This document shows, one piece after another, positions 26,828-49,729 of a stretch of DNA of 64,000 nt. Numbering within the stretch: the first letter of the stretch is position 1; every line of letters starts with the position of its first letter. Under the pieces are notes generated by a model. It was not told the origin of the DNA. It did not search any database and worked only from the letters and a program-made list of their open reading frames with translations. The DNA lies in the NCBI RefSeq assembly GCF_001042595.1, contig NZ_AP012326.1:2294001-2358000 (forward strand). The letters run 5' to 3'. The position numbers and the translations under genes were made by a program. Source of the DNA: Bifidobacterium dentium JCM 1195 = DSM 20436 (GTDB lineage: Bacteria > Actinomycetota > Actinomycetes > Actinomycetales > Bifidobacteriaceae).

Positions 26828-27748
26828 ATGAAAAAATCACTGGCAACAACCATCGTCGCAGGTGCTCTCGCACTGTCGATGGCCTTCGCAACCGCCGCGT
26901 TCGCGGATCCGGCAGGAGCCGTCGATCCACCATCCACCGACTATACCGGCTGGGTGAACGCGAATGGAAACAAATACTGGTTCGACAGCGGAGTCATGGC
27001 CCGGAGCAAGGAGATCTTCGATCCGGGAAGCGATGCATGGTACTGGCTTGACGCCGATGGCACCATGGCGCATGACAAAGACGTGTACCAGCATTCCAAT
27101 GGCGGCAAATGGGTACGCTACGACGCCAATGGCCACATGATCAAGGGCGAGCAATACTCCACCAAGGCCGGCCATGTCGGCTGGTACTATTTCGATCCGA
27201 TCACCGGAGCCATGGCCAAGGGCATGCGGTACGTGCCGTCAAACGGCGGCAAGTGGGTGTACTACGACTGGATCACCGGCATCATGGCCCACGGCGAGCA
27301 GTTCGTGAACTACGACGGGGATCATACCGGCTGGTATCTGTTCGATCAGGTTACCGGCGCGATGTACCACGGCGACACCTACATCCGCTCCAACGGCGGC
27401 AAGTGGGTACGCTACGACCGCGTAACCGGCAAGATGGTCAAGGGCCTGCACCATCAGGACGGTTCGTACTACTACTTCGACCAGACCACTGGTGCAATGG
27501 CGCACAGCCGCGTATGGGTACCGGAATGGAACGCCTACGCAACATTCGATTCGGTCACCGGACGCCTTGTGAACAATAATTCAAATTCCGGCAACACCGG
27601 CGGCAACACCGGCGGAACCGGCAGGAACATTCGCGGCCAGTGGTGCAAATCCAGAGAGCAAGGTACGCAGAAGCTAGACGGAGACGGCACCCCGATCGTC
27701 TGCGAATGCCGCAATGGCAACAAACGTCCTCACTGGTACGCCAGGTAG
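26828..27748 (+). CDS. Secreted wall-binding-repeat protein with short Cys-containing tail
   Basis: A 306-residue protein. Signal peptide (residues 1-26, KKSLATTIVAGALALSMAF, cleavage after AFA) is followed by about 230 residues of aromatic/Gly repeats of the choline- or glucan-binding type (GGKWVRYDANGHMIKGEQY, GWYYFDPITGAMAKGM). A short Asn/Gly/Thr linker then leads to a roughly 40-residue tail with three cysteines (GQWCKS, VCECRNG). No catalytic domain is seen, so it may be a wall adhesin or a targeting unit. AAGGAG supports the start at 26828. A 246-bp part is nearly the same in DNA as part of the GH53 gene at 36.5 kb. A T-tailed terminator follows. Confidence 0.88.
   Translation: MKKSLATTIVAGALALSMAFATAAFADPAGAVDPPSTDYTGWVNANGNKYWFDSGVMARSKEIFDPGSDAWYWLDADGTMAHDKDVYQHSNGGKWVRYDANGHMIKGEQYSTKAGHVGWYYFDPITGAMAKGMRYVPSNGGKWVYYDWITGIMAHGEQFVNYDGDHTGWYLFDQVTGAMYHGDTYIRSNGGKWVRYDRVTGKMVKGLHHQDGSYYYFDQTTGAMAHSRVWVPEWNAYATFDSVTGRLVNNNSNSGNTGGNTGGTGRNIRGQWCKSREQGTQKLDGDGTPIVCECRNGNKRPHWYAR
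27199..27444 (+). repeat. Inverted-repeat copy 1 (wall-binding repeat DNA)
   Basis: This stretch matches the reverse complement of 36545-36791 closely along its whole length. Several runs of over 30 bases are identical, for example around 27268-27313 (the ITGIMAHGEQFVNY repeat). The two copies lie about 9.3 kb apart in opposite orientation. Confidence 0.8.
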
Positions 27749-27780
27749 TCCGCAGCTCATCTGCTGACTAGGGAACACGA

Positions 27781-27810
27781 GTGGAGTTGAATTTTCGACT
27801 CCACTTTTTT
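27781..27810 (+). terminator. Intrinsic terminator
   Basis: Arms GTGGAGT and ACTCCAC around a 10-nt loop, followed by six T residues, 32 bp after the stop of the repeat protein. It also separates that gene from the convergent DUF2142 gene. Confidence 0.85.
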
Positions 27811-27816
27811 CTTTGC

Positions 27817-29121
27817 CTACTTCCAATCGATAAGGAACGAAATCGCGATGCCGAAATAAGAGAATGCCGTCAGCGCGATTACCGTCGCAAACACGGTTCT
27901 GTTCCGCGCGCCGGAGACCAGTCGCGGAACCAGCAGGAACAGCAATGGCAGTATCGGCACGAAATAACGATTCTGTATGCCCGAAGCGTATCCGCTGGAT
28001 TTGCCGGCCCACGCGATCAGCATGGCCGTGCAGGTCGCCGCGAAGTACGCGCAACTCACCAATGCGGGAACGGCGATCTCCTTCCAGCCCTGCAGATGCC
28101 GTTGCGAAGCGCCGACGATCACCAGGATGGCGATGGCGAGCAGTACGGGAATGACGACGGCGTTGGCTAACTGCACGGCTTCGGTACCCGCGAAGAACTG
28201 TAGGTTGCGGCCGGCGTTGACCAATCGTCCGTCGATTTTCTCCGTATCCACAGTCAACGGTTCGAAGAACGTCTGGAACCAAGAACCAATCAGCGAGAAC
28301 GGATCGGCCATCATCTGTTTTTTCAGCTGGCTGATCTGCTCGATACTGACATGGCTTGGAGCGGTGGCGATGTGAGCAACCTTGCGGTTCCACATCGCCA
28401 TGGAGGCGATCGAAGCCATAACAGGCACGACCAGAGCCATCTTCAACGGTATTTTCTTCGCCTTGCCAAGTAGCACGAACACAAAGAACGAAACCAAAAT
28501 GCAGGTGATTTTGACCTGCCCCAGCATCGCCGCCAGCACCGACAGTATGCCGATATGCAGCCACCCGAACCGAGTGCTTTGATAACAGCACAGCACCACG
28601 GCGATGAACAGCAACGATATGCTGTTGATCATCGCATCGGCCGTCGGGAACGTCAATGAGAAGAACGTCATCGGCAGAATGGCCGTGGCAAGAATCGCAT
28701 ATCGAAACTCGCGGGCAAGCCATATCGCCAAGGCGATGATGCCGGAAGTAATCAGCAACGTGGCAATGCTCGATGCCTTGTAATCACCTTGAATAATCAG
28801 GCTTGGCAGATACGCGAACGGCGAGTTCACCGCAGTGTTGTTGAACGGCTTGATGATCCCATTGTCATTCTTGACCACCCATTCGGGAAAATCCTGGGAC
28901 AGCTGCGGCACGATGGTCCCTGCGCGCAACTGTTCCACACGAAGCCAGTGGGCCGTTGAATCATTCTGATATGAGTACTTCCCCGTGGAAATGACGGTCA
29001 ACCCCGTCACCACGGTCAGTAACCAGTACAGTATGGCACTGACCGCCGCGAGTCTTGGCACGGTTCCACCTGCCGAATTCTCAATCGACGGTTGTTTGCC
29101 GGAACCGTGCCGTGCGCTCAT
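27817..29121 (-). CDS. DUF2142-like multi-spanning membrane protein (GT-C type)
   Basis: A 434-residue protein with about ten to twelve membrane helices. After the first helix an outside loop carries AHWLRVEQLRAGTIVPQ, and later LPMTFFSLTFPTADAMINSI. Both fit the DUF2142 family, whose members resemble GT-C glycosyltransferases using polyprenyl-linked sugars. The late segment GIQNRYFVPILPLLFLLVPR is also typical. AAGG lies 8 nt before the ATG. It follows the ABC exporter genes on the same strand with about 40 bp between, so it may add side sugars to the exported polymer on the outside. Function is inferred. Confidence 0.8.
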   Translation of the reverse strand: MSARHGSGKQPSIENSAGGTVPRLAAVSAILYWLLTVVTGLTVISTGKYSYQNDSTAHWLRVEQLRAGTIVPQLSQDFPEWVVKNDNGIIKPFNNTAVNSPFAYLPSLIIQGDYKASSIATLLITSGIIALAIWLAREFRYAILATAILPMTFFSLTFPTADAMINSISLLFIAVVLCCYQSTRFGWLHIGILSVLAAMLGQVKITCILVSFFVFVLLGKAKKIPLKMALVVPVMASIASMAMWNRKVAHIATAPSHVSIEQISQLKKQMMADPFSLIGSWFQTFFEPLTVDTEKIDGRLVNAGRNLQFFAGTEAVQLANAVVIPVLLAIAILVIVGASQRHLQGWKEIAVPALVSCAYFAATCTAMLIAWAGKSSGYASGIQNRYFVPILPLLFLLVPRLVSGARNRTVFATVIALTAFSYFGIAISFLIDWK

Positions 29122-29160
29122 AGGGCATGCCTTACTACTAACTCTTCGCGGTAATTATAA

Positions 29161-30447
29161 TCAGGCCGTCTCCCGCTCCACCTGCGAATCATCTAACGGC
29201 TCAATTGTCAAGGCTCTGTCGCTGAGGAGCGCATACTCACGATTACGATCGTCACGAATCACAAAGCTGCAGGCGTTGTCATCAAGGGCGACGCCGACGG
29301 CGTCCGTGGCTTTCGGATCGCTTGGGCTTGGCGTGCGCAGCGACGTAATCAGACGGAATTCACCGTTATTGAACAGGTTCAACGGCATTTCGAAGTGCAC
29401 GGTCTGATGGCCGCGCCGTGTCATCCTGAACACCTTGGAACCGGTGTCGTACGTGATGCCGCCGCGGCGAATGTCATGCAGCGCGATGGCCAGGTAGAAG
29501 TCTCCCGGCTCGTCATACTGATACTCCACGTCGAATTTGAACGTATCCGCACTGGAGCAGACCTTCGGGGAGATCGCAGTCGTCTTGAGCAATGGGCAAC
29601 GTTCGTTCAGGCCGTTCGGGTAGCCTCCACGCTCCTCCTGACGCTTGCGTTCGGCTTTCTCCTCGGCTTCCAAGTTGGCCAACGTATACTGCTGCGACAC
29701 GGTTTCCGGATCGCCGATGGCCTCCACTTCGCCATCTGCGATCATCATGGCGCGGGAGCAGTACTTCTTTACGGAATTCATGTCGTGGGTCACGAGAATG
29801 ACCGTTTTGGACGGGTCTTTTTTGATTTCGGTGAAGAAGTCATCGCACTTGCGCTGGAACGCCTCATCACCGACCGCGAGCACCTCGTCAAGCACCAGAA
29901 TGTCGCCTTGGGCCTTGATGGCCACGGAGAACGCCAGACGAACCTGCATGCCGGAGGAATAGTTCTTCAGCTTCTGGTCCATGAATTCCTCAAGCTCCGC
30001 GAATTTGACGATGTCGTCATACATCGCATCGACTTCCTCATGGGTGAAGCCGAGCAGGGAACCGTTCAGGTACACGTTCTCACGTCCGGTGAGCTCCGGA
30101 TTGAAGCCCACGCCAAGTTCGATGAACGGCACCAATTTGCCCGTAACGGTAATCGAACCGTTCTCCGGGTAGTAGATCTGAGAAATCAGTTTCAGCAACG
30201 TGGACTTGCCGCCGCCGTTACGGCCGACGATGCCGAAGAACTCGCCCTGATGCACCTCGAAGCTGATGTCTTTGAGCACTTCCTGCTTCTTGTAGCCCTT
30301 GATGCCCTTGGTCCAGTTGATGAACGCCTGCTTCAGACCGGTGGCCTGCTCCGTCGGCAGCTTGAAGCATTTGGATACGTGGCTTGCCGAGAGCACCACC
30401 GGATTTTTCGTATAGTCGATCTTCTCGATCATTTCCTCATCGGGCAT
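29161..30447 (-). CDS. Polysaccharide ABC exporter, ATP-binding protein (Wzt/TagH type)
   Basis: A 428-residue ATPase. Walker A is GIVGRNGGGKSTLLKLI, the signature is KNYSSGMQVRLAFSVAI (SSGMQ in place of SGGQ, usual for this subfamily), Walker B is DILVLDEVLAVGDEAFQRKC. After about residue 260 there is a C-terminal beta-rich domain like the Wzt carbohydrate-binding domain, which recognises finished glycan chains. The start overlaps the permease stop as TGATG. Together with the permease it would export a lipid-linked polymer completed in the cytosol, probably the galactofuranose-containing glycan. Confidence 0.93.
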   Translation of the reverse strand: MPDEEMIEKIDYTKNPVVLSASHVSKCFKLPTEQATGLKQAFINWTKGIKGYKKQEVLKDISFEVHQGEFFGIVGRNGGGKSTLLKLISQIYYPENGSITVTGKLVPFIELGVGFNPELTGRENVYLNGSLLGFTHEEVDAMYDDIVKFAELEEFMDQKLKNYSSGMQVRLAFSVAIKAQGDILVLDEVLAVGDEAFQRKCDDFFTEIKKDPSKTVILVTHDMNSVKKYCSRAMMIADGEVEAIGDPETVSQQYTLANLEAEEKAERKRQEERGGYPNGLNERCPLLKTTAISPKVCSSADTFKFDVEYQYDEPGDFYLAIALHDIRRGGITYDTGSKVFRMTRRGHQTVHFEMPLNLFNNGEFRLITSLRTPSPSDPKATDAVGVALDDNACSFVIRDDRNREYALLSDRALTIEPLDDSQVERETA

Positions 30448-31283
30448 CACATGACCTCCGCGAACTTGCGGCTGTTGCGGCGGAATAGGCAGACGCCAAG
30501 CCACAGCAGCACAACGGTAAGGACCAGCGGGAACAGACGAATGCCCCAATTGCCGAACTGATTCCAGATGGTCGGTTGGGTATCGGGGGCGATGAAGTTG
30601 TGACGAATATCCTGAATCGTCTGCGCGAACGGGTTCAGCAGCTCCAAACGGGCCAGGTCGGCGAGTATTCCGCCTCGGTTGGTCACATAGGTGAGCGGAT
30701 AGATGATAGGCATGCCGTAGAACACCAACTGCTGCAGGACTTCCCAAATATGGGCGATATCACGGAAGTACACGTACATGGTCGCCATCAGCAGGGTCAG
30801 TGCCAGGGTGATGGCGTACAGCTCGATGATATTCAGCGGCAGCAGCACCACACGCCAGGTGAACTGCACGCGGGCCACGAGCGCGAAAATCAGCACGACC
30901 ACCAGATTGATGGCGAAGCTGATCAGTGCGCCGATGGTGGCGGACACCACCACGATGTAGTTCGGGAAATGGATCTTACGCAGCAGATCGCCACGGTCCA
31001 CGACCGAACGCAGGCCGATGTTGGTCGATTCGGTGACGAACTGCCAGGAGCTGATGCCCAGCAGCAGCACCACCGGATAGGTCGGAGTGCCGTCCGACAT
31101 GCGCAGGAACTTGCCGAACACCACATACATCACGCAGAACATCATCAACGGCTTGAGTACCGACCATGCGATGCCGAGGAACGACCCCTGATAGCGGAGC
31201 CTGAAGTCGGTCTTGACCAGACCTTGCAGAACGGTCCATGCATAACCGTATCTGTCTTGAATATTCTTCACCAGCTGTTTCAC
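30447..31283 (-). CDS. Polysaccharide ABC exporter, permease (Wzm/TagG type, ABC-2)
   Basis: A 278-residue protein with six membrane helices. The N-terminus has the short amphipathic entry helix and TDFRLRYQGSFLGIAWSVLKPL, the hallmark of TagG/Wzm permeases, and the C-terminus ends in a helix that carries GVCLFRRNSRKFAEVM. Start is GTG. It is translationally coupled to the ATPase. The pair forms a complete exporter alongside the separate Wzx/Wzy set at 8.5-14.7 kb. Confidence 0.93.
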   Translation of the reverse strand: MKQLVKNIQDRYGYAWTVLQGLVKTDFRLRYQGSFLGIAWSVLKPLMMFCVMYVVFGKFLRMSDGTPTYPVVLLLGISSWQFVTESTNIGLRSVVDRGDLLRKIHFPNYIVVVSATIGALISFAINLVVVLIFALVARVQFTWRVVLLPLNIIELYAITLALTLLMATMYVYFRDIAHIWEVLQQLVFYGMPIIYPLTYVTNRGGILADLARLELLNPFAQTIQDIRHNFIAPDTQPTIWNQFGNWGIRLFPLVLTVVLLWLGVCLFRRNSRKFAEVM

Positions 31284-31351
31284 AAGTTGTATCCTATCAG
31301 TGCCCGTTCTTAAGCGACTTTGCGCGGCGGAATGCCCCGCATTTCCTTACA

Positions 31352-32431
31352 TCATCCTGCGTTCCGCATCATGTGCAGGGTGCGTTCGATGCCTTGCCGA
31401 ATCGGATACTTCGCCTTCCAGCCCAAACCGGCGAGCTTGCCGCCATCCATCAACGCGAGCGTCGCTTTGGAATAGCCTTTGGATTCCACCTCGTCAGGAA
31501 GCTCGAAACGAACCTCGACCCCGCAATATTCGGCCACTAGGGCAGCCAGATCGCGCAGTCGGCAGTCGGACGCGGAATCGGCGATGTTGTAGGCCTCACC
31601 TGCCTTGCCCTGCATCATGCAATACAGCAGTCCCGTCACGGTATCGCCCACGTAGGCGTAGGAATACCGTTGCGTGCCTTCGCTTTTCAGGATGATGTCT
31701 TCGCCGGCAAGCCCCCGATGGATGAATTGCGACAACGCCTTGCTGTCGTCCGCGTGCAACGTGGGACCATACGTGCGCGCGATGCGGGGTATGACCGGAC
31801 GCACACCATACTGTTCACGGTAGGCCTGGCACAGGGATTCGCCCAAACGCTTGGCCTCCGGATAGCCGGCACGCAACGTATTGGCGTCGATATATCCGCA
31901 GTACCGTTCGTCGAACCGTTCGACATCGCCGCGATTCTGTCCGTAGACTTCCACGGATGATGCGAAGACGAAGTCGATGCCGTCGCCATGCCGCGAGGCG
32001 TCGTTGCCGCAAGCGTAGTCCAGCAGATTCTTCAGTCCGATGATGTTGGAGGTGATGGTGGCGACCGGTTCCGTGGCATAGGCCCTGGGATGCGTGGTGC
32101 TGGCCAGATGCACTACGATATCGGCTGGAAGTTCGGGGCAGGCACCCGGTACGGACACATCCATCTGCGCGACATGGAAATGTTCGCCGCCGACATATGG
32201 GAAGCGAGCGCGAATCCGCTCGGCATTCCGCCCGATGGCGATGACATCGCACCGGAAATCCGCTTCCGCATTCTTGCGCATCAATACATCGATGAGGAAA
32301 GTGCCGATCATGCCGGTCGCACCGGATACCGCGATGGTCTTGCCGTTCAGTCGGGACCAGTCGATGGGCAGGGCCGCGCAATATGACAGGTCGTCTTGGT
32401 AGAGCCGTGATTGCAGACGCTGGTCGGGCAA
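31352..32431 (-). CDS. NAD-dependent epimerase/dehydratase (extended SDR)
   Basis: A 359-residue enzyme with a Rossmann motif (VSGATGMIGTFLIDVLM, near residue 35-50), the NAD-binding VVHLASTTHP, a Ser in FASSVEVYG, and a Tyr-x-x-x-Lys pair in GYPEAKRLGES, where it reads Y-P-E-A-K. It resembles sugar-nucleotide epimerases and dTDP-glucose-dehydratase-like proteins. It starts with TTG, with AAAGGA 6 nt upstream, and follows the cytidylyltransferase gene by 26 bp. Extended-SDR genes next to TarI/IspD-like genes occur in surface-polymer clusters; a role in making a nucleotide-activated sugar or polyol is inferred. Confidence 0.88.
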   Translation of the reverse strand: MPDQRLQSRLYQDDLSYCAALPIDWSRLNGKTIAVSGATGMIGTFLIDVLMRKNAEADFRCDVIAIGRNAERIRARFPYVGGEHFHVAQMDVSVPGACPELPADIVVHLASTTHPRAYATEPVATITSNIIGLKNLLDYACGNDASRHGDGIDFVFASSVEVYGQNRGDVERFDERYCGYIDANTLRAGYPEAKRLGESLCQAYREQYGVRPVIPRIARTYGPTLHADDSKALSQFIHRGLAGEDIILKSEGTQRYSYAYVGDTVTGLLYCMMQGKAGEAYNIADSASDCRLRDLAALVAEYCGVEVRFELPDEVESKGYSKATLALMDGGKLAGLGWKAKYPIRQGIERTLHMMRNAG

Positions 32432-32457
32432 TGCCGTTCCTTTCGATGTTCGGTATG

Positions 32458-33192
32458 TTATTTCAGCCAGGTGTCCTCATCCGCCGTGATGTAGGCCTTG
32501 AACAATTCCAGATCGCCTTTGGTGGTGAGCTTGATGTTCTTGTCCGAACCTTTGGCGAAATGCAGGGTTTCGCCCAAATCGACCATCATGGTATTGATGT
32601 AGCTGGAACCGTGGATGCCGATGTTCTCCTTGAACGCCTTGCGATAGGCGGCCAGAAGCTTGCCGTAACGGTAGGCCTGCGGCGTGGAGACGCGGCGAAG
32701 CTGTTCGCGCGGCACATACTGTACGGTGGTCGATGGGTCATCCTGATTGATCACGAAGATCTGTTCGTTGTATGGAAGCGAGGTTACGGCATTGCCATAC
32801 CGTTCGCATACTTGGATCACGTCGGTGAGTACGTCGGCGTCGATCAGCGGTCGGATGCCGTCATGGATGATGACGATGTCTTCCGGATCGAGTTCATGCT
32901 CCAGATGTTCCACACCGTTGCAGATGGATTCCTGCACGCTGCCGCCACCGGGCACGATCCACTGGAGCTTGTCGATGTTGAACTGCTTGGCATAGGCGTC
33001 AACCATGGTCTGCCAGCCGTCGATGCACACCACCGCGATGGCGTCGACGTCGGGGTGGCGTTGGAAGCTCTCCAGCGTGTAGATGAGCACGGGCTTGTCG
33101 AACACGTTGATGAACTGCTTCGGAATATCCTGCCCCATTCGGGTTCCAGAACCGCCCGCTACCACTACCGCTACATTCTTCATGGAGTTCAC
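32458..33192 (-). CDS. IspD/TarI-like cytidylyltransferase
   Basis: A 244-residue nucleotidyltransferase. VAVVVAGGSGTRMGQDIPKQ is the CTP-binding loop, then VLIYTLESFQRHPDVD, a central IVIIHDGIRPLIDADV (the HDAVRP-like motif) and a C-terminal ITADEDTWLK. Both IspD (isoprenoid) and TarI (ribitol-5-phosphate) have this fold. Position beside an SDR gene, a LicD gene and a polymer exporter favours the TarI-like role, giving a CDP-polyol or similar donor. Start is GTG with AGAGG 6 nt upstream. Confidence 0.88.
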   Translation of the reverse strand: MNSMKNVAVVVAGGSGTRMGQDIPKQFINVFDKPVLIYTLESFQRHPDVDAIAVVCIDGWQTMVDAYAKQFNIDKLQWIVPGGGSVQESICNGVEHLEHELDPEDIVIIHDGIRPLIDADVLTDVIQVCERYGNAVTSLPYNEQIFVINQDDPSTTVQYVPREQLRRVSTPQAYRYGKLLAAYRKAFKENIGIHGSSYINTMMVDLGETLHFAKGSDKNIKLTTKGDLELFKAYITADEDTWLK

Positions 33193-33222
33193 TCTATACC
33201 TCTCGGCGGGCCATGCTGAAAT

Positions 33223-34370
33223 TCATCGTTCGATGTATTCGCGAATGATGTTCGCATCCGCCTCCGCCAAGGCGTGGCGATCGACGTGTTCGAAATGCAG
33301 ACCGATATCGTCGGGCAAGGAGAAGATGTCGCCATAGGCATGGCTCAGCAGATACATGTGATTCGCCGGAACCGGATACGCACGGTTTTCGAAGTGCATC
33401 AGCGGCAGTGGGAAGATGTCGTCGATGGCGCTGATCCATTCGAATCCACTGGGGTGGTCCATATTGTCGTAGGCACGGACGATGCCGCCGCCTCCTGCCG
33501 GGAGCAGACCACGCCGGTCTCACGCATCTTGGCCAGCTGGTCGTCAAACGCCTTTGTGATCAGCGTTCCGGCTTCCGAATCGGCGGGAACATATACGTTT
33601 TCGTCCCAGGCCGCACGGATGTGCTCATCGGCTTCCGATGCTTCGATGGCGGCCCGTCTATACTCCTGCACCTTCAGGAACGTGTCATGGTCGGGCGTGC
33701 GCACCCAATCGAACGGGAACAGGTCCACGAATCCCGGAACACGGGGATCACGCGGGGCGAAACGCACCTGACGGCAATGCACGATGCGATCCCAGACCAC
33801 GGTGACCTGATAATCCGGATTCGACGCAAGCACCTGCTCAAGACGCTCCAGGTCGTCACGCATGATGCCGAGATCAAGATCGTCATCCCACGGAATGAAA
33901 CCGTGATGGCGTACCGCACCGAGCAACGTGCCGCCGACCAGCCAGTATTGGGTGATGTCGTTGGCATTGCAGATGTCTGCGAAATCGTTGAGCATCCTGT
34001 TCAGCGCCGCCTGCAGCAGACCGATGTCGCCTTCCGCCTTCGGCAGGTCGAGAAAGAAGCGTTTGCGTGCGTCCAGACTGGTTTCGTCCGGTCTACGGTA
34101 CTGTGCCCAGAAACGAATGTCGGCCTTCGACTTTTCGGCTATCTGCATCCGATGCACGGTGTCGACCAGGTTGCGAGTGTCCTCACCCAAGCCGCGGACA
34201 CCGTATATGACGTCACGAAGTTCACACAGCATCGATTCCTGCTGTTTCAGCGCCTCGCCAAGACTGTTGTTCTCCCTTTCCAAATCATCGACCCTATCCA
34301 TGAGCCTTTGCATGGAACGTTCTGATGGCCAAAAGAGCTTTTCGCGCATTCGTCTCACTACAGATGCCAT
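33223..34370 (-). pseudogene. LicD-family phosphotransferase, frameshifted
   Basis: The frame from 34370 gives a coiled-coil-like N-terminus (residues 10-65) and the LicD core WLVGGTLLGAVRHHGF and IPWDDDLDLGIMRDDLERL, which transfers phosphocholine or another phospho-diester group to glycans. The frame is conserved up to MRETGV near 33515 and then runs into ASSVPTTIW and an early stop. In another frame the expected continuation appears at once (LLPAGGGGIVRAYDNMDHPS) and runs to a stop at 33223. A single missing base around 33495-33515 explains this. No homopolymer run marks the site. It is either a real inactivating mutation or a sequence error. Confidence 0.85.
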
Positions 34371-36409: not shown

Positions 36410-36418
36410 ATCCATGCA

Positions 36419-39889: not shown

Positions 39890-39934
39890 CTGATTTCCCC
39901 TCTGTTTTTTCGCGGCTGCCCCTTGCAGCCTCAT

Positions 39935-40987
39935 TCACGCGGCGGCTTGCCTGCGTTTCGCCAACTGCGGGTAGAACCACTCGTTGACCACTGGTACATA
40001 ATACAGCAGTGCCGCAAACGCCAGATCAATCGGCAAACGCACCACAAAACTCGTCACAGTCAGCGGGATATGTGGCAACAGGTTGTGCAACACCCCCAAA
40101 TACATCTGCCACGGCAACACATCATCCTCAACAAGATGCACACATAAAATGGCGAGGCTCGACTGCCCAGTCCAGCTCAGCGCCCTTCCCAAAGCGGGCA
40201 CATGGTCGAGCAGCTTCGAAATGCCGACCACGCACAACGTTCCCGCGAGGCTGCCGATCACCGCCTGCACCGGGCGGGTGCCGTAGTTGTTGATGGCCAT
40301 GCTCATGCCTCCGAATCGGACGATGGCGACGACCCAGATCACGCCGGCAACGCCCCACAGCCACGGGAAGCGCTTTACATGGCCCATCAGGTCATACCGT
40401 TTCGCCAAGTAGCCGACATATACGAACGCGACCGCGCACATACCCGACTGCAAGCTCCAAGGCAACCACACGTATCGGGCGGAAATATAACCGATCGCAA
40501 AGCTGGACACCACCCAGACCGGCGTATACGGCAATTTGGCGAAGGCATGCAGCAACAGATGCGCCCAGAACAAAGCCAACAGGAACCAGATCGCACCGAT
40601 GCGCAGCTCCACAGGCCATAATGTACGGTCGGAGATGTCACCGCTACCATACAGTACCGCCTCGCCCCAGCGGCGTAGCATGTAAGCCCGGCCTTCATGG
40701 TTGACGGTGGCCATGCACGTCACACCGACCAACACCGCCACGCCCGTCACCGCGTATGTGCACAGCAACTGCCTGGCTTCCTTCGCCCAGCGGAAGCTAC
40801 GTTCCGGATGCATGAAATAGCCGGACAGTATGAAGAACAACGGCATGTGGAAGGAGAAGCAGACCGCCACCACCAGCTGCGCGGTGTGATGAGGGATGAA
40901 TACGTTCGCCTCAATGGCGCTGTGCCCCAGAATCACGGCAAGAATGGCAATGCCTTTGGCTATGTCGAAGAAACGGATTCGTTGCAT
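39935..40987 (-). CDS. Acyltransferase 3 family membrane protein
   Basis: A 350-residue integral membrane protein starting RIRFFDIAKGIAILAVILGH, with the Asp-Ile-Ala-Lys and His pattern of fucose/polysaccharide O-acetyltransferases (WecH/OatA-like membrane part). It continues with FFILSGYFMHPERSF and about ten helices; AIWFLLALFWAHLLLHAF is in the middle. It has no extra SGNH domain of its own, but the next gene upstream encodes a secreted SGNH esterase, which makes a transfer/removal pair conceivable. Its stop is 45 bp before the GH53 start, so the two may be co-transcribed. Confidence 0.88.
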   Translation of the reverse strand: MQRIRFFDIAKGIAILAVILGHSAIEANVFIPHHTAQLVVAVCFSFHMPLFFILSGYFMHPERSFRWAKEARQLLCTYAVTGVAVLVGVTCMATVNHEGRAYMLRRWGEAVLYGSGDISDRTLWPVELRIGAIWFLLALFWAHLLLHAFAKLPYTPVWVVSSFAIGYISARYVWLPWSLQSGMCAVAFVYVGYLAKRYDLMGHVKRFPWLWGVAGVIWVVAIVRFGGMSMAINNYGTRPVQAVIGSLAGTLCVVGISKLLDHVPALGRALSWTGQSSLAILCVHLVEDDVLPWQMYLGVLHNLLPHIPLTVTSFVVRLPIDLAFAALLYYVPVVNEWFYPQLAKRRQAAA

Positions 40988-42676: not shown

Positions 42677-42710
42677 GCCGCACCTCCCAATCATGCGATT
42701 TTTTCCGTTA

Positions 42711-44429
42711 TCACTGTACCGCAACAGGTCTTGCGGCAAGACGACGCCGTTGATGGACGCTTTTACCCCAGGCCACCGCCGTTTGGATGCCATAGGCCGC
42801 CATGGGTACCAGCAACAGGTAGAACGGCAATGTATAGATGCCCTTGGCCTCCCACAGCACGTAACATAGGAAGCCACCAAGGAATGAGGCGCACAGCAGC
42901 ACCTGCACGAATACCTTGTCGGCATTGCCTTCCTCATTACGGTTCCTGAACACCGCGCGGGTCAGTGCGATGAGTCCGATGAATGCCAGCAGATACATCA
43001 CCGTCTGGGCTACGTTCTCATATCGCAGCAGGATGTTCGATCCACGCCCCACCAGCAGGAAGGAGGCCAATCCGGAAAAATGATTCGACGAATCACCAAG
43101 CTCGGAATACAGCGACGTCATGAACGTGGGCTCAGCCCATTCCGACGCCAGTTTGGCGGTGAAGAAACGCAGTCCCTCACCCGGATCGCCTAAGAGTTCG
43201 GCGAGGCGGCTCTTGACGAAATCCGTGGAAATCTGCGACTGCTGCGCATAATCATTGCCGGTTTTCTCGAATGCGTCCAACGCGAACCTGCTCCACCAAC
43301 CGGCAGGTACGTTATCCGGCTCCCCCATGCCAAGTGCAATCCAGGAAATCATCGGCATGCCCTTGCCGAAATCCTGTCCGGTCCAATGCTGCACCAAACT
43401 GACGGGCAGTTTGGAAATCACAAAGGCCCCGCCTGCGGACACGAAGGCGACAATCAGCTGCCAGAAACGGCGATTGCGCCATACCGCGAAGATCACGGCG
43501 AGGATTGCGGCCAGAATCACGATCTGATACGTGGATTTGAACACGATGCCGATGCCGCAGATCAGGAAGCCGGCCACGATCGTGAGCCCGCTGGTCCAGA
43601 CCTTCTTCATATGGAACGCTTCGGCCACCGCCGCGGCCCCCGCGATGGTGATGAAGAAGCCCACGGCGTTCGGGTATACGAATGCGGCGAACATCAACAA
43701 CGGCACACAGGTCGCCACCAGCACGGTGAACGCGCCATGGCCCACCGCATCAAGCCCCAGATGGGTGCCGAAACGCCAGAGCACCGCCACCAGAGCGGTG
43801 ACCGCGAGCGCGCTGACGATCTGGAAGGCGAAGACGTTCTTCGCGCCGAACAGGGCGAACACCAGCAGATACCAGAGCATCGGTCCGCTTTGGAACGGAT
43901 AGTACGAGAAGTACGTGTATGCGCTCGGGATGCCCCTGTTTACGCATGCCGCCTCAGTGCTGCCATGCGGGCAGAAATCCGGGCTGAACTGGTTCAGGTT
44001 TCCCTTGAGAAGGGTATCGGCGGCATCCATCAGGCTTCGGGAATCCGGATATCCGTAGGTGGTCAGACCCAATGAGGTTATCCAGATGATTTGCACGACG
44101 GTTACGTAGACCAGCAACGCGACCAGCACCCAACGTTTCGGGAGGCGTGCGATGCCGACCGCCAACAATGCCAGCGCCGCGAACAACGCCACGATTCCCA
44201 GCACGAAGGGTATGGAGGGCAGCCCCAGATGGTAGTGCACCCGTTCCGTGACATTGCCAGGTTCCGGCGCGCTTCGTTCGAATATGACGGTGAAGCAGAT
44301 CGACAGCACCAGCAATACGGCGACGACCGCGGCCTGAAATCCCAGTGCCAGCACCGTCAGCCAGCGAGGCACAGTCCGCCAGAATACCGACTGACGTTCA
44401 GATACGGCATGTATGTTCCGCTCGTTCAC
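42711..44429 (-). CDS. GT-C-like multi-spanning membrane protein
   Basis: A 572-residue protein with about eleven to thirteen membrane helices. The first long outside loop contains YPDSRSLMDAADTLLKGNLN, a pattern with acidic residues seen in GT-C glycosyltransferases. Near the C-terminus FLGGFLCYVLWEAKGIYTLP is shared with actinobacterial and Gram-positive polymer-modifying proteins. Start is GTG with a weak GGGA site. It follows the GtrB-like gene at 44482 on the same strand; that pair (polyprenyl-phosphate-sugar synthase plus GT-C transferase) would add side sugars outside the cell. Confidence 0.82.
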   Translation of the reverse strand: MNERNIHAVSERQSVFWRTVPRWLTVLALGFQAAVVAVLLVLSICFTVIFERSAPEPGNVTERVHYHLGLPSIPFVLGIVALFAALALLAVGIARLPKRWVLVALLVYVTVVQIIWITSLGLTTYGYPDSRSLMDAADTLLKGNLNQFSPDFCPHGSTEAACVNRGIPSAYTYFSYYPFQSGPMLWYLLVFALFGAKNVFAFQIVSALAVTALVAVLWRFGTHLGLDAVGHGAFTVLVATCVPLLMFAAFVYPNAVGFFITIAGAAAVAEAFHMKKVWTSGLTIVAGFLICGIGIVFKSTYQIVILAAILAVIFAVWRNRRFWQLIVAFVSAGGAFVISKLPVSLVQHWTGQDFGKGMPMISWIALGMGEPDNVPAGWWSRFALDAFEKTGNDYAQQSQISTDFVKSRLAELLGDPGEGLRFFTAKLASEWAEPTFMTSLYSELGDSSNHFSGLASFLLVGRGSNILLRYENVAQTVMYLLAFIGLIALTRAVFRNRNEEGNADKVFVQVLLCASFLGGFLCYVLWEAKGIYTLPFYLLLVPMAAYGIQTAVAWGKSVHQRRRLAARPVAVQ

Positions 44430-44481
44430 TCAATCATCCCATCTTGCCCGGAAAATGCGAGAACGGCCCATCATCGGCCGC

Positions 44482-45474
44482 TTATAGCGATTCTTCAATG
44501 ATATAGCGCGGGCGCGCCTTCACTTCCAGATAAATCTTGGCGATGTACTCGCCCGTCACGCCCAGCGACAGCAGAATGAAACCGCCCAGAATCCACAGCG
44601 AGCACATCATGGAACCCCAACCTGCCACGGCATGCCCGGAAAACACCGAAATCAGCGTGTACACCAGCATGATGACGCCCACGAACACGGAGAATACGCC
44701 AAGCCCGGTAATCATGGTCAATGGTTTGGTGGAGAACGACGTAACGCCTTCGATGGCGAAGGAGACCATTTTTTTCAGCGGATACTTCGATTCGCCGGCC
44801 ACGCGGGTGCCGCGCTTGTAGAACACCTTTGCGGTCTTGAATCCGAGGGATGGCACCAGACCGCGCAGGAACAGATTCGATTCCCTGTACTGCGACAGGG
44901 CCTGCAGGGCCGCACGGCTCATCAATCGATAGTCGGCATGGTCGGGAACGGTTTCGGTGCCCAGCCACTTCATCATCGAATAGAAGGCGTGAGCGGTTCC
45001 CCGCTTGAATACGGTGTCGGTATCGCGGTTATCGCGTACGCCGTACACGATTTCGGCGCCTTCACGGTAAGCGGCGACCATGCCGTCGACGGCATTCGGA
45101 TCATCCTGCAAGTCGGCATCCATGGAGACCGCGGCATCGACGTTCAAGTGCAGCGCATGCATCAGCCCCGCGAACAGCGCATTCTGATGCCCTCGATTAT
45201 GGGCGAGCTTCACCCCGTGGAACATGTCAGGGCACTCGTTATGCAGGGACGTGATCACATCCCATGTCTTGTCAGCGGAGCCGTCATCCACGAAAACGAC
45301 CGAACTATCGGAAGCGATCTGACCGGCATCCTTCAAATCCTGAAGTTTGCTCTTCAGAACCCCTGCGGTGACGTGCAGTGCGGCCTCCTCGTTGTAGCAG
45401 GGAATCACAAACACCATTGCCGGCGCTTCACGCAACCGGGCACACGTATCGTAAGCATTCTCTTCGTTCGTCAT
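44482..45474 (-). CDS. Polyprenyl-phosphate glycosyltransferase, GtrB/DPM1-like (GT2)
   Basis: A 330-residue enzyme. FVIPCYNEEAALHVTAGVL, VVFVDDGSADKTWDVI and AAVSMDADLQDDPNAVDGMV give a complete GT-A site, HADYRLMSRAALQAL is the acceptor region, and two C-terminal helices (about residues 230-310) anchor it. Such enzymes load glucose or another hexose on undecaprenyl phosphate. TACACT lies 7 nt before the ATG at 45474 with no ribosome site, so the mRNA is probably leaderless. The GT-C gene next to it is the expected user of the product. Confidence 0.92.
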   Translation of the reverse strand: MTNEENAYDTCARLREAPAMVFVIPCYNEEAALHVTAGVLKSKLQDLKDAGQIASDSSVVFVDDGSADKTWDVITSLHNECPDMFHGVKLAHNRGHQNALFAGLMHALHLNVDAAVSMDADLQDDPNAVDGMVAAYREGAEIVYGVRDNRDTDTVFKRGTAHAFYSMMKWLGTETVPDHADYRLMSRAALQALSQYRESNLFLRGLVPSLGFKTAKVFYKRGTRVAGESKYPLKKMVSFAIEGVTSFSTKPLTMITGLGVFSVFVGVIMLVYTLISVFSGHAVAGWGSMMCSLWILGGFILLSLGVTGEYIAKIYLEVKARPRYIIEESL

Positions 45475-45586
45475 GCTTAATAGTGTATGACAGGCGGCCA
45501 ACCCATGCGCCGGGAATCCCCCTCCCGTTGTCATGCGACCGTTATAGCATGCCCCCTAAGGGAACACAGAGGGGGATTCACCACCA

Positions 45587-47044
45587 ATGCATAAACGAAC
45601 ATTGATCATGGCCGGATTCATCGCCGTCACAGTACTTCAGGGAATCAGCTATCCCGCAATCGCACTGGCCGATGCCCCGACCGCAACGCAATCATACTCA
45701 ACATCACAACCGGCCGGAGAGACCCAGTCCTCAAGTAGCACCGAGAACGATGCCACTTCGGACGCATCACATGACGCGGCCTCTTCCCAAACCCCCATGT
45801 CAAGCCCGAAGACGGCCCAGTCCGGCGCCACCGCACAGTCCGGAACCGAAGCGCAGTCGGATGCCGAAGCGCAGTCGGATGCCGAAGCGCAGTCCGAGGA
45901 GGCTTCCGGCAAATCGGTCGATCCCGGTACGACGGCCGACCCGAACAAGACGACCGAGCCCGCTCAGCCATCCGAGCCGGCCAAACCGGAAAACGGCTGG
46001 GATCAGAACAAGCAGCACTACTACGAGAACGGCGTCATGGCCGTCAGCAAGGATGTGTTCATCCCCAACGACCCGAACAACCGCAAGGAAGGCATATGGG
46101 TTCGTTTTGATCAGAGCGGCAACCTGGTCAAGGGCGAGAACTACCACAACGGCGGCTGGTACTACTTCGATACGACCACCGGCGCCATGGTCAAGGGCGT
46201 CAAACACATCTCCTCCAATGGCGGCAAGTGGGTGTATTACGACGTGGTGACCGGCAGGATGGCCCACGGCGAAGCCTATCTGCACTACGACAAGGAACAT
46301 ACCGGCTGGTACTACTTCGATCAGTACACCGGCAAGATGGCCCATGATTTCGTATACATCCGACAGACCAACAAGTGGGTGTACTACGACAAGATCACCG
46401 GCAAAATGCAGTACGGCGAGCGCTACATCAACGGCGGCTGGTACTACATGAAGCCGGTCACCGGCGCTCTGGCCAAGGGCAGAACCTGGATGGCGAGCGG
46501 CAACAAGTGGGTGTATTACGACAAGATCACCGGCCGCATGGTTCACGGCGGTGCCATCATCGACGGTCACCACTACTTCTTCGACCCGTACACCGGCGCG
46601 CAGTACAGCAAGCAGCAGATCGCCAATCGCCTGGCATCATACGCACGCACCTATTCCAGCCAGCACCCCGATTGCCCGGGCGCATTGGCGGCGAACGGCG
46701 GCCTCATCTGCCCGTTCGGCCCGTGCATGTCGTTTGTCTGGTACGTCTTCCATGCCGCAGGCCTGGACGTATTCCTTTGCGATGGAGCCAAGACCGGTTG
46801 GCCTCACCACAACTTCGACTGGTACAACTCCCGCGGCCGCGTCAGCAGCACCCCGCAGGTGGGCGATGTCGCCTTCTGGAAGTTCAGCGACTCCTGGGCC
46901 AGCAATTACAGCGCCAGCCATGCCGGCATCGTAATCGAGGTGAACGGCGGCAATGTGGTGATCGTCGACGCAGCCTACGGCAACATCGGCGTACGTTCGG
47001 CTTACAGCGGCGCACGCTACGCCCATCCGTATTACGACGAGTGA
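45587..47044 (+). CDS. Secreted CHAP-domain peptidoglycan hydrolase with wall-binding repeats
   Basis: A 485-residue protein. Signal peptide (1-29), a Ser/Thr/Gln/Ala-rich linker with short EAQSDA repeats (residues 30-135), aromatic/Gly repeats (135-340) and a C-terminal CHAP-like domain. FGPCMSFVWYVFHAAGL carries the catalytic Cys (about 379), GDVAFWKF follows, and SHAGIVIEVNGGNVVIVDA carries the His (about 444). It should cleave peptide bonds of peptidoglycan (amidase or endopeptidase). GAGGGGG lies 11 nt before the ATG. The gene diverges from the GtrB-like gene by 112 bp. Confidence 0.9.
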   Translation: MHKRTLIMAGFIAVTVLQGISYPAIALADAPTATQSYSTSQPAGETQSSSSTENDATSDASHDAASSQTPMSSPKTAQSGATAQSGTEAQSDAEAQSDAEAQSEEASGKSVDPGTTADPNKTTEPAQPSEPAKPENGWDQNKQHYYENGVMAVSKDVFIPNDPNNRKEGIWVRFDQSGNLVKGENYHNGGWYYFDTTTGAMVKGVKHISSNGGKWVYYDVVTGRMAHGEAYLHYDKEHTGWYYFDQYTGKMAHDFVYIRQTNKWVYYDKITGKMQYGERYINGGWYYMKPVTGALAKGRTWMASGNKWVYYDKITGRMVHGGAIIDGHHYFFDPYTGAQYSKQQIANRLASYARTYSSQHPDCPGALAANGGLICPFGPCMSFVWYVFHAAGLDVFLCDGAKTGWPHHNFDWYNSRGRVSSTPQVGDVAFWKFSDSWASNYSASHAGIVIEVNGGNVVIVDAAYGNIGVRSAYSGARYAHPYYDE

Positions 47045-47110
47045 TCTTCCGGATCCGGTCCCGTAACCGATTCGCATGGACCTTCACATATCACAATAAG
47101 GCGGTGGCAT

Positions 47111-47881
47111 ATGAAACGAGGCGTTCGCGCCTGCACATTGGCAATGACCGTGGTTCTGTCGCTCTCCCTAACGGCATGCTCCACCCATGGCAGTGAGGCA
47201 TCGCGAACGCCCTCCCCCACCTCCACTCCGACGACGTTGGATGACACCAAAACCGATGCGTCGGTCGCCACGAGTTTCTCCAAAGTCGTACCAGACAAGA
47301 CGTTGGCCTCCTGCCTTGCGTCCATTCTCGACGCATCCGGCAAGGCCTTCCCCTCAACCAAGGCCGCACAACTCACATCCTTGGCCTTCACGCAGTACGC
47401 AACCCAATACCAGCCTTGCGGCAAAAGCGATCTCAAGCACGTCACCACGCTGGAGGGGCTGCAACGTTTCACCGGTGTCACCGACTTGGATCTCAGCGAA
47501 TTCAGCGCGTTGAAGAGCATCACGCCGGTCGAATCAATGGCCTCGCTGACGCAGATCAATCTGCAGGACACCGCCATCTCCGACATTTCATCGCTTGCCA
47601 AGCTCACATCCCTGAACAACGTTTCCCTGCCGGACCACGCCTGCGATCTGCAAGCCCTCGCCGACCTGCCGCTGACCGCAGTGAACCTGCAGTGCCCGAC
47701 CGCCGACATCACGCCGTTGGACGGCAAGAAGGCACAGATCTATGTTCCCGAAGCATTCGACCGCAATGCGGCGGTGGCATCGGCGCAGACCGGCAACATC
47801 ATCGGCATCAGTCAGGAAGACGGATCATTCGAAATCCTCCAGCTGGGCGATGACGGTACGGTGACGTCCCAGAAAATCTGA
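47111..47881 (+). CDS. Lipoprotein with leucine-rich-repeat-like region
   Basis: A 256-residue protein with a lipoprotein signal (VVLSLSLTACSTHG, Cys 23), a Pro/Thr/Ser linker, then repeats of internalin-like spacing (VTDLDLSEFSALKSITPVES, LTQINLQDTAISDISSLAKL, LNNVSLPDHACDLQALADL). The repeats suggest a short solenoid that binds a protein partner at the membrane surface. AAGGCGG precedes the ATG. It lies 66 bp after the CHAP gene on the same strand and may be part of its transcript. No enzymatic motif. Confidence 0.82.
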   Translation: MKRGVRACTLAMTVVLSLSLTACSTHGSEASRTPSPTSTPTTLDDTKTDASVATSFSKVVPDKTLASCLASILDASGKAFPSTKAAQLTSLAFTQYATQYQPCGKSDLKHVTTLEGLQRFTGVTDLDLSEFSALKSITPVESMASLTQINLQDTAISDISSLAKLTSLNNVSLPDHACDLQALADLPLTAVNLQCPTADITPLDGKKAQIYVPEAFDRNAAVASAQTGNIIGISQEDGSFEILQLGDDGTVTSQKI

Positions 47882-47896
47882 GCTTTCCGTAGCTTC

Positions 47897-49729
47897 TCAG
47901 CCGCGACCGGTAATCGTATCGAACGTGTGCCATTCCTCCCATTCCGGCACCCACGTGCGGCCATGGGCCATGGCACCGGTGGTTTCATCGAAGTAATACC
48001 ACGCACCGTTCTGCTTATGCAGTCCCTTGACCATCTTGCCGGTGGAACGGTCGTAGCGCACCCATTTGCCACCGTTCGAACGCAGATAGACGTCCCCGTA
48101 CACCATGGCTCCGGTGGTCTTGTCGAACAGATACCAGCCGGTATGCGTCTTGTCGTAATTCAGGTAGACCTCGCCATGGGCCATCTTGCCGGTGATGACG
48201 TCGTAATAGACCTTTTTGCCGCCGTTGGAGGAGATGTACTTGACGCCTTTGGCCATGGCCCCGGTGGTCGTGTCGAAATAGTACCAGCCGCCATAGCGGT
48301 AATCCTCGCCCTTGACCATATGGCCGTTGGAGTCATAGCGAACCCATTTGCCACCGTTCGAACGCAGATAGACATCTTTGTTGCACGCCATGACCCCGTT
48401 CGAGTCAATCCAATACCAGGCGTTGCTGTCGGGGTCGAAGATCTCCTTGCCGCGAGCATAGGTGCCGTCGGCATCCTGCCAGTATTTCTGACCGTTGCGC
48501 GTAACCCAATGGGCCGCAGGGTTCACGTATTCCCTGTTGCCGAACGCATTCATGTCGACGTTGCCGCTGATGCCGTTCACATGGCCGACGCTCGTATATT
48601 GCCAGCCACGATTGTTCGCCGAATAGGAGAAGTTGGTGCGGGGACCGTAACTGGCCACCCACTTGGCCTTGGACCGAATGTTGCCATGGTTGAGCGGACC
48701 GTTCAGATAGCTCGTATACGAGTACACGCCCAGATTGTTGTACCCGGCCGCCTGCAGACGACCCCACCACGCATTCACGATGCCGTTATATACATTCGGA
48801 TCGGTCGGTACCTGATGGCCCGTCCACGTCCATTGTTCCAAATCGTAATATACCGGGAAGGACAGGTCGTTCGGCGAAACGCCGGCCTTCTTGAGCAGTC
48901 CGACCAGATCATTGCCCTCTGCGGTGGCCGTGGCCGCATCATACGAATATGAATACGTGTATATGCCGAAGGGGATGCCAAGCCGCTTGCATTCGCTGAT
49001 ATTGCGCAGCGCCGTCTTGTCGAATCCGTTATCCCAACCGTAGGAGATGCGGATGATCGCACCCTCCACGCCATCGGCCTTCGCCTTGGCCCAGTCGATG
49101 TTGCCCTGCCATTGCGAAACGTCGATCACGCCCTTCGCCTGCTGCACGAACAGATTGCCACCTGATTCGAAGAACGCCTTCGTATTGTTGTAGGAGCCCC
49201 AATACGCACCGTATTCGTTCGACGTGAATTGCGCCGGCGTCACCTTGCCGTCAGTGTCCGTCGAGGATTGTTCCTGCGATTGCTCCGCAGAGGCATCGGC
49301 TTCGTCGACCGCCTCCTTCACATCGGCGGCGGCAACCGGAATGAAGGTCTCCCCGTCGGTTTTCGCCAACGGATCGGGAGCCTGCTCTTCGGTACCGACC
49401 AGTTCCGGATCGGTCACCGTTTCGCCGGTCTCGACGTCTTTGACGTCACCTTCGGCGGTGACCGCCAGATTCTCGGATACCACGGTGGCACTGTCCGGAA
49501 TGCTTTCACTCACCGAATCCGGCAATTGCGCCTGCGGATTATCAGGCATGACGGTCTGCGACGACTCGTCCTGATCAGCCTGAACGACATCGGCATTCGC
49601 ATCGTTGCCGGCAACGGCATCAACCGAATGGTCCATCAGCGCACTGGCCGGAACAGCGCCCATCAACATCAAGGCCACGGCGGCAAACGCAGCCGCCACC
49701 ATTGAAAAGGCTTTCTTCAGTGAATTCAC
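47897..49729 (-). CDS. Secreted GH25 muramidase with wall-binding repeats
   Basis: A 610-residue protein. Signal peptide (1-31, ending VPASA), a long acidic Asp/Glu/Val-rich linker (32-165), a GH25 domain (about 195-395) and C-terminal repeats. GVIDVSQWQGNIDWAKAKAD holds the first catalytic Asp, and FPVYYDLEQWTWTG the DxE pair (about 294-296), so it should cut the MurNAc-GlcNAc bond. The repeats end in EWHTFDTITGRG, as in the GH53 protein. Start is GTG with GAGAGG 8 nt upstream. It is convergent with the LRR lipoprotein gene (15 bp gap). No holin or phage gene is nearby, so it is a housekeeping or surface enzyme, not a phage lysin. Confidence 0.93.
   Translation of the reverse strand: MNSLKKAFSMVAAAFAAVALMLMGAVPASALMDHSVDAVAGNDANADVVQADQDESSQTVMPDNPQAQLPDSVSESIPDSATVVSENLAVTAEGDVKDVETGETVTDPELVGTEEQAPDPLAKTDGETFIPVAAADVKEAVDEADASAEQSQEQSSTDTDGKVTPAQFTSNEYGAYWGSYNNTKAFFESGGNLFVQQAKGVIDVSQWQGNIDWAKAKADGVEGAIIRISYGWDNGFDKTALRNISECKRLGIPFGIYTYSYSYDAATATAEGNDLVGLLKKAGVSPNDLSFPVYYDLEQWTWTGHQVPTDPNVYNGIVNAWWGRLQAAGYNNLGVYSYTSYLNGPLNHGNIRSKAKWVASYGPRTNFSYSANNRGWQYTSVGHVNGISGNVDMNAFGNREYVNPAAHWVTRNGQKYWQDADGTYARGKEIFDPDSNAWYWIDSNGVMACNKDVYLRSNGGKWVRYDSNGHMVKGEDYRYGGWYYFDTTTGAMAKGVKYISSNGGKKVYYDVITGKMAHGEVYLNYDKTHTGWYLFDKTTGAMVYGDVYLRSNGGKWVRYDRSTGKMVKGLHKQNGAWYYFDETTGAMAHGRTWVPEWEEWHTFDTITGRG

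Follow-up and report, generated by a model that had tools for sequence, protein, structure and literature searches.

What do the repeats of a group of secreted wall enzymes bind in Bifidobacterium dentium, a species associated with tooth decay, and which gene supplies the receptor? The question is raised by a locus of strain JCM 1195 = DSM 20436, contained in a stretch of 64,000 nt (contig NZ_AP012326.1, positions 2,294,001 to 2,358,000; hereafter the window, whose first letter is position 1). Five proteins encoded there share wall-binding repeats, and genes for polymer export and modification are found between them. An original prediction, made from the letters of the window, regarded the locus as a self-contained system of decoration and docking, in which a LicD protein decorates a polymer and the repeats bind this decoration. 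Our survey of 112 genomes of the genus, including the B. dentium genome studied, points to a different step. The repeats may anchor wall enzymes to the polymer of this locus, and the likeliest receptor-making step would be the addition of a sugar side chain by the product of a GtrB-like gene, probably together with that of its neighbor; we assign this reading a probability of about 0.48. The five repeat genes (named, like the other genes, by their lowest coordinate) are:

26801..27748, plus strand: repeat-only secreted protein with PF19127 repeats, no enzyme domain and an Excalibur-like Cys tail
36419..39934, minus strand: tandem GH53 protein (two GH53 stretches) with PF19127 repeats
41039..42694, minus strand: PF19127 repeats with a GDSL/SGNH esterase; start inferred, about 42694 or 42676
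45587..47044, plus strand: PF19127 repeats with CHAP, from the domain scan
47897..49750, minus strand: GH25 lysozyme with PF19127 repeats, from the domain scan

The repeats and the domains to which they are fused were as originally described. PF19127 (Choline_bind_3) scored above the curated cut-off of 27 bits in all five proteins (hmmscan; 70.6, 50.1, 89.1, 74.6 and 71.7 bits), and the scan returned the same partners, namely none, tandem GH53, SGNH esterase, CHAP and GH25. Since PF19127 is present in merely 18 of the 112 genomes (with 17 matches in the B. dentium genome studied), its five-fold occurrence is no chance result. The five-gene cluster is real and already in print: the genome paper of B. 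dentium Bd1 (2009) reports choline-binding domains in the products of five adjacent genes, BDP_2045, 2054, 2056, 2059 and 2061, and gives BDP_2047/2048 as rgpD/rgpC homologs (PMC2788695). The spacing of the BDP numbers agrees with the gene order in the window and, judged by this numbering, the two sets almost certainly correspond gene for gene and in order. The Bd1 paper reads their products as inter-bacterial aggregation proteins and, in the parts of it consulted, makes no connection between repeats and polymer genes (PMC2788695). Among the matches listed from open-licence PMC articles, no title or abstract connected these repeats with LicD, with GtrB or with changes of GH25 module; what the present analysis adds is their link to side-chain glycosylation and the variation of the GH25 modules.

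When the proteins of the window were compared by tblastn with the loci of the repeat genomes, the gene at 44482-45534 was singled out. It lies among the following genes:

44482..45534, minus strand: GtrB-like (sll0501/ArnC-like) glycosyltransferase, from similarity to PDB 5ekp
42711..44429, minus strand: probable GT-C type membrane glycosyltransferase, with PMT_2 in relatives and a weak fold match to AglB/ArnT
39935..40987, minus strand: membrane acyltransferase (PF01757)
34466..36337, minus strand: GlfT2-like glycosyltransferase (GT34466), Glft2_N and GT2 matches below cut-off
30447..31283, minus strand: Wzm permease, NCBIfam galactan_ABC_perm below cut-off
29161..30600, minus strand: Wzt, the ATPase of an ABC transporter for polymer export, with an approximate start, the listed open reading frame (ORF) reaching 30747
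27817..29121, minus strand: DUF2142 multi-pass membrane protein, from the domain scan
23542..25626, plus strand: GlfT2-type galactofuranosyltransferase whose N-terminal, GT2 and C-terminal domains all exceed the cut-off, just outside the cluster

The 44482 product matches PDB 5ekp (sll0501, which we take to be the protein named GtrB) over residues 40-347 with an E value of 4.5e-47, and ArnC-type chains at about 5e-28; from this near full-length similarity to a solved member it is most likely a GtrB-type polyprenyl-phosphate glycosyltransferase. Counting matches of at least 400 bits and the split copy of genome G076 as present, we found orthologs in 36 of the 112 genomes: 17 of the 18 repeat genomes compared with 19 of the 94 others (p 2.3e-9, kinship ignored). 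For the other genes the thresholds were set after the score lists had been seen. Relatives of 42711 (at least 200 bits) occur in 12 of the 18 repeat genomes and in 3 of the 94 others. We then took kinship into account by means of an rpoB tree that covers 100 of the 112 genomes. The genomes left out, for reasons including low quality and a broken rpoB match, are all repeat-less (G005, G039, G048, G055, G059, G065, G077, G078, G094, G095, G096 and G103) and include one with the GtrB gene and a choline kinase (G077) and one with a LicD-IspD cassette (G078). The repeat trait changes state 15 times on this tree, and in 15 independent pairs the GtrB-like gene changed in the same direction in 12.9 and in the opposite direction in 0.0 pairs on average (median p 2.4e-4). 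The corresponding values were 8.3 and 0.0 for 42711 (p 0.008) and 7.0 and 0.0 for GT34466 (median p 0.016, range 0.004-0.125). GT34466, with an ortholog in 14 of the 18 repeat genomes (p 2.9e-5, kinship ignored), was considered as the main partner as well and set aside as weaker than the GtrB-like gene.

The association is also one of position. Distances to the nearest repeat gene, measured between tblastn matches that share a contig, have a median of 120 bp for the GtrB-like gene (17 genomes; at most 400 bp in 13 and at most 1.5 kb in 16), 156 bp for relatives of 42711 (12 genomes) and 5.9 kb for Wzm (14 genomes). The repeat genes are mostly found within a Wzm/Wzt and GlfT2-like locus, beside the GtrB-like transferase, and in the window four of them adjoin a membrane or polymer-modifying gene (26801 and DUF2142, 36419 and the acyltransferase, 41039 and 42711, 45587 and 44482). 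A profile scan of genome contigs yielded 43 loci, 14 from the set of 112 genomes and 29 from 17 genomes not matched to that set. In all three Bifidobacterium genomes among these 17 (B. asteroides, B. polysaccharolyticum and strain B4142) a GtrB homolog lies 0.15-0.18 kb from the repeat match. In Alloscardovia criceti a GtrB homolog is present too, separated from the repeat gene by a 42711 relative. Within the genomes that we take to belong to the Coriobacteriia, 3 of 6 have the homolog: Collinsella ihumii (0.55 kb), a Coriobacteriaceae metagenome-assembled genome (3 kb) and Enorma (5 kb, 46% identity). As a separate observation, in three of the genomes that we assign to the Firmicutes (L223, L225, L227) the repeats adjoin distant Wzm/Wzt and GT34466-like (GlfT2-like) genes.

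From these data we propose that the five proteins are secreted wall enzymes plus one repeat-only protein, which would dock on the wall polymer of their own cell through beta-hairpin solenoid repeats of the choline-binding/glucan-binding/CROP fold. The fusion of the repeats to the wall-acting enzymes GH25 and CHAP speaks for this proposal, as do the varying C-terminal modules of related GH25 proteins in other species. The polymer would be built and exported by the locus itself (GlfT2-like transferases, Wzm/Wzt). Most likely 44482 loads a sugar on polyprenyl phosphate, and 42711 would pass it to the polymer outside the membrane, so that the likeliest receptor would be this sugar, or else an acyl group from 39935. 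In this scheme the domains, the fold class, the co-occurrence and adjacency of the genes and the variety of modules on related GH25 proteins are observed, and we infer the enzyme activities, the identity of the polymer, the binding of the repeats to it and the group that they read. The original idea of a self-contained system gains partial support, in a modified form: wall enzymes paired with a polymer of the same locus fit the association of the GtrB-like gene across the tree, a genomic association, while LicD as the decorator does not hold, as described below.

A GtrB-like enzyme, a flippase and a GT-C enzyme at the outer face form the described scheme of teichoic acid glycosylation (PMC7389260). 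As in such three-component systems (CsbB/GtcA/YfhO, GtlA/GtcA/GtlB and phage GtrA/GtrB/GtrX), the window holds a GtrB-like enzyme and a GT-C candidate; unlike in these systems it has no flippase gene, and the acceptor is probably a galactofuranose-type polymer rather than teichoic acid. We suggest this acceptor because of the GlfT2-type genes in the locus. A phospho-glycero-beta-galactofuranan is reported for B. bifidum PRI1 in reviews (PMC8551831, PMC6920858). The assignment of 42711 as a probable GT-C type transferase builds on PMT_2 matches in 4 of 13 aligned relatives (best E 4.9e-9) and on an AlphaFold2 model (pLDDT 82.6) with AglB, ArnT and ALG3 among its best fold matches, at E values of 1.1e-3 to 9e-3; the window copy has no Pfam match, PMT_2 included. 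Membrane proteins with DUF2142 turn up repeatedly next to repeat genes or GtrB-like genes (L035:7300-8733 and 27817-29121 in the window) and are possibly GT-C relatives.

Several points weigh against the proposal that the GtrB-like gene makes the receptor. The partner was chosen from the loci of the same genomes, so that the p values are no blind test. The GtrB-like gene occurs without repeats in 19 genomes, and one genome (G042) has two PF19127 matches and lacks the gene; G042 counts as a repeat genome by PF19127, and a purpose-built repeat profile found no repeat ORF in its stretch. Among the 18 repeat genomes, 6 lack a 42711 relative of at least 200 bits, 4 lack GT34466 and one (G019) lacks Wzm. 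A full GtrB homolog was not found in Phoenicibacter (a 5-kb contig), Collinsella tanakaei An791 or An368 (a partial match of 72 bits), nor in any of the 7 Firmicutes genomes with similar repeats, where the locus stretches were covered. The fold matches of 42711 are weak (TM 0.3-0.4 with the best E value at 1.1e-3), and a GtrA-type flippase (PF04138) is absent from the window and exceeds the cut-off at 2 other places of the genome. Furthermore, several modifiers compete as the receptor maker, since the acyltransferase (median 76 bp from the repeat gene, 11 genomes), DUF2142 (74 bp, 9 genomes) and LRR genes (81 bp, 4 genomes) are equally close where present.

The main rivals of side-chain docking are a surface island without any ligand relation, and choline or glucan binding outside the cell. 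If the cluster were an island of surface variation whose polymer and repeat genes are simply inherited together, co-inheritance would yield the same pattern. The loci are indeed rearranged and patchy, as the 15 changes of the repeat trait illustrate, and both the repeat-less genomes with a GtrB gene and the equal closeness of other genes would be expected. However, the association survives the independent contrasts, which that of LicD does not, and it recurs in other genera; we regard such an island as unlikely, though it deserves serious attention.

We next considered LicD itself, which lies in the window with two further genes:

33223..34370, minus strand: LicD-family gene, frameshifted; the N-terminal piece matches human FKRP
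32458..33192, minus strand: IspD/TarI-like cytidylyltransferase, best PDB match TarI
31352..32431, minus strand: extended SDR of the UDP-GlcA decarboxylase / dTDP-glucose dehydratase type (nucleotide-sugar type)

The cytidylyltransferase, SDR, LicD and Wzm/Wzt genes that had been predicted among the repeat genes were all located, although the frameshift in LicD had been overlooked. The LicD frame (33399-34370) breaks off at about 33.50-33.56 kb, and the C-terminal part resumes in another frame (ORF 33223-33519). In protein clusters, 44 member sequences belong to the 323-aa form identical to that of the window and 730 to a 382-aa form with 99% identity over the query; longer copies that appear to be intact are therefore commoner. 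Presence and absence across the genus, which had been named as the test of the idea, gave LicD in 24 and PF19127 in 18 of the 112 genomes and both in 3, compared with 3.9 expected (Fisher p 0.76), and over the 15 independent pairs the mean number in which LicD followed the repeats was 2.0 and that in which it opposed them 0.8 (p 1). The repeats and LicD are thus independent in the genus, and LicD is present in 1 of the 43 loci of the profile scan (B. moukalabense, a member of the 112-genome set). By co-occurrence counts, tree contrasts and frameshift LicD was rejected as the receptor maker.

These results also bear on docking of the pneumococcal type, in which LicD adds phosphocholine to the polymer and the repeats bind it. 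Choline kinase (PF01633) exceeded its cut-off in 14 of the 112 genomes, in 12 of them with LicD no more than 1.8 kb away, from which it follows that the genus has lic-type loci. None of these 14 genomes has the repeats (2.25 expected, p 0.12; not significant alone). Conversely, no choline kinase over cut-off was found in the B. dentium genome or any of the 18 repeat genomes, so that this enzyme was dismissed as a hidden partner; matches below cut-off occur in 6 of the 18, the B. dentium genome included. The tree contrasts gave 0.0 pairs in the same and 0.3 in the opposite direction for choline kinase (p 1), and 1.0 and 0.2 for IspD (p 1). PF01473 (Choline_bind_1), tried as a profile for repeats missed in the choline-lic genomes, matched 10 of the 112 genomes, all of them already repeat genomes. 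LicD has at least two settings in the genus, either beside a choline kinase or no more than 2.5 kb from an IspD-like gene (the latter in 8 genomes; G085 shows both). The window has the second setting, and an intact LicD beside a choline kinase was not found there. For choline docking one can cite the name of PF19127, the presence of LicD in the locus, fold matches that include choline-binding modules, the pneumococcal CbpL, which binds choline through non-consensus repeats and likewise has Excalibur (PMC5137146), the commoner long LicD form and the choline-kinase-like matches below cut-off. Against it stand the broken LicD of the strain studied, its independence from the repeats, the missing choline kinase, and the IspD-like and SDR neighbors with FKRP as the sole PDB match; together with the tryptophan counts given below, these make this kind of docking very improbable.

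What the LicD-IspD-SDR genes produce instead can be narrowed to some degree. FKRP is the only PDB relative found for the N-terminal LicD piece, and human FKRP is a ribitol-phosphate transferase. The IspD-like enzyme is closest in PDB to TarI, narrowly before plant IspD, and scores too low for the NCBIfam models of IspD and of ribitol-phosphate cytidylyltransferase, falling short of either cut-off. Because LicD resembles FKRP and sits with IspD-like and SDR genes, transfer of an alditol phosphate is likelier than that of choline. The genes resemble the TarI and ISPD/FKRP alditol-phosphate systems in these two nearest relatives and differ in that the SDR is of the extended nucleotide-sugar type and LicD is broken. 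We consider them a separate accessory cassette that probably adds alditol phosphate and would be dispensable for docking. As a partner of the repeats the IspD cassette was rejected, with copies of at least 65% identity in 5 genomes and repeats in 2 of them. In G085, LicD (C1:416376-417049), SDR (L011:7208-8258) and Wzm (C1:1899327-1900141) were each matched in two pieces, which suggests decay of such cassettes.

GH25 lysozymes occur in 103 of the 112 genomes. We classified 57 of the 103 from 40 stretches (13 GtrB-positive repeat-less genomes and 27 of 76 GtrB-negative ones) and the earlier loci; classes were assigned by phmmer to representatives, Pfam was run on ten representatives and four more proteins, and genomes were counted by hand. 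The GH25 proteins related to that of the window carry different C-terminal modules: Choline_bind_3 repeats (CB3) in 13 genomes, RicinB-like modules in 18, an unnamed module ending in AFGV in 12, SLH in 6, LGFP-like in 6, DUF5648 alone in 1 and another unnamed module in 1. Three of the 13 CB3 genomes also match RicinB (G014, G049 and G102), and one RicinB-like genome also matches DUF5648. For the LGFP-like protein of G076, Pfam gives GH25 only, and its relative in G109 matches LGFP; the SLH-bearing GH25 domains are less similar to that of the window and may represent a separate gene. Examples of module-changing loci are L043, L047, L155, L159, L168 and L173. Wzm is frequently a near neighbor of the GH25 gene (at 5 kb in G057 and 13 kb in G082), though not in G104 and G106. 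A B. longum GH25 lysozyme with LysM is in print and seems to be a different protein (PMC8587964).

The GtrB-like gene was present in 13 of 13 CB3, 3 of 18 RicinB, 8 of 12 AFGV, 2 of 6 SLH and 4 of 6 LGFP-like genomes, in a sample chosen partly by GtrB status. The classified genomes include 7 of the 14 with choline kinase, namely 5 LGFP-like, 2 RicinB and no CB3 genomes. The GtrB-like gene lies within 0.2 kb of GH25 in three LGFP-like genomes (G035, G108, G109) and one RicinB genome (G004), and at about 2 kb in another RicinB genome (G085). Since the transferase thus adjoins GH25 genes with other modules, the data favor its pairing with wall lysozymes in general over a pairing with the CB3 repeats alone, a further point against a specific partnership. 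A broader and more speculative proposal, which we regard as rather doubtful at present, is an exchangeable lock-and-key: GH25 and companion enzymes would swap their wall module between species as the side-chain glycosylation of the polymer changes, and CB3 would be a sugar-reading rather than choline-reading branch of the choline-binding fold, paired with its GtrB-like neighbor.

Finally, we analyzed the repeats for signs of their ligand. A model of 26801 (pLDDT 75, nine sequences) matches the choline-binding modules of LytB and Pce, the TcdA CROPs, alternansucrase and CbpF, and fold matches of the repeats include GtfD. As a ligand test this search was set aside, for the fold is common to choline, glucan and toxin CROP modules and leaves the ligand undecided. 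The canonical choline site (GWxK...WYY) is built from two tryptophans (PMC5137146, PMC4929436). In 295 repeat cores, found by regular expression in 48 repeat ORFs and including some false ones, e.g. inside GH53, the Trp of the GW position is kept in 4, with Glu commonest there (76), and the second Trp is kept in 251. Loss of the Trp does not settle choline binding, because pneumococcal CbpL has non-consensus repeats and an Excalibur domain and yet binds choline (PMC5137146). Excalibur (PF05901) was found in 4 of 9 aligned members of the 26801 family (orthologs in L020, L022, L026 and L031), which in this respect resemble CbpL; the window copy gave no match in the PF05901 scan and has another Cys-containing tail. 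The locus shares with the pneumococcal choline-binding proteins (LytA, LytB, LytC, CbpF, CbpL and Pce) the beta-hairpin solenoid repeats fused to wall enzymes. It differs from them in that the repeat genomes lack a choline kinase over cut-off, the GW Trp is rare and a GtrB-like gene is linked instead.

Two explanations place the ligand outside the cell. In one of them the repeats are coaggregation adhesins directed at the phosphocholine of other bacteria, such as oral streptococci. The fold class, the capacity of non-consensus repeats to bind choline (PMC5137146) and the aggregation role proposed in the Bd1 paper (PMC2788695) are in line with it. However, the repeats are fused to GH25, CHAP and GH53 enzymes, occur in numerous further species of Bifidobacterium and also in Collinsella-type bacteria, frequently with wall-polymer genes as neighbors, and mostly lack the canonical choline Trp, so we hold this explanation to be improbable. 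The other is binding of an external glucan or other carbohydrate, as by the glucan-binding domains of glucansucrases. The repeats match alternansucrase and GtfD in fold, and the three repeat proteins scanned match the glucan-binding repeat TIGR04035 below cut-off; the close linkage, seen beyond a single genus, to genes that probably modify a wall polymer and the GH25 and CHAP partners leave glucan binding with a similarly low probability. For docking through a sugar side chain, Listeria offers a parallel in PlyP35, a phage enzyme whose module is different from the window repeats. Its wall-binding domain also reads a sugar decoration, terminal GlcNAc on wall teichoic acid (by a title cited in PMC7389260).

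Some features at the margins of the cluster may be mentioned:

49885..51600, plus strand: SASA-family esterase; in 6 of 8 genomes a relative lies no more than 1.5 kb from a repeat gene
25689-26561: Fic-domain protein adjoining the repeat cluster
8000-17000: block of low GC (about 35-47%) that encodes glycosyltransferases and a UDP-sugar dehydrogenase, lies near a priming transferase (18673-20298) and was possibly acquired

If docking through polymer side chains is correct, repeats annotated as choline-binding outside choline-bearing bacteria would often be misread, and the adjoining genes would give a hint at the polymer group that is bound. For the five B. dentium proteins it would provide an alternative to the aggregation reading. 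Bifidobacteria would then possess a testable code between polymer and enzyme, which may be of use for wall-targeted lysins, phage receptors and the display of proteins on probiotic surfaces.

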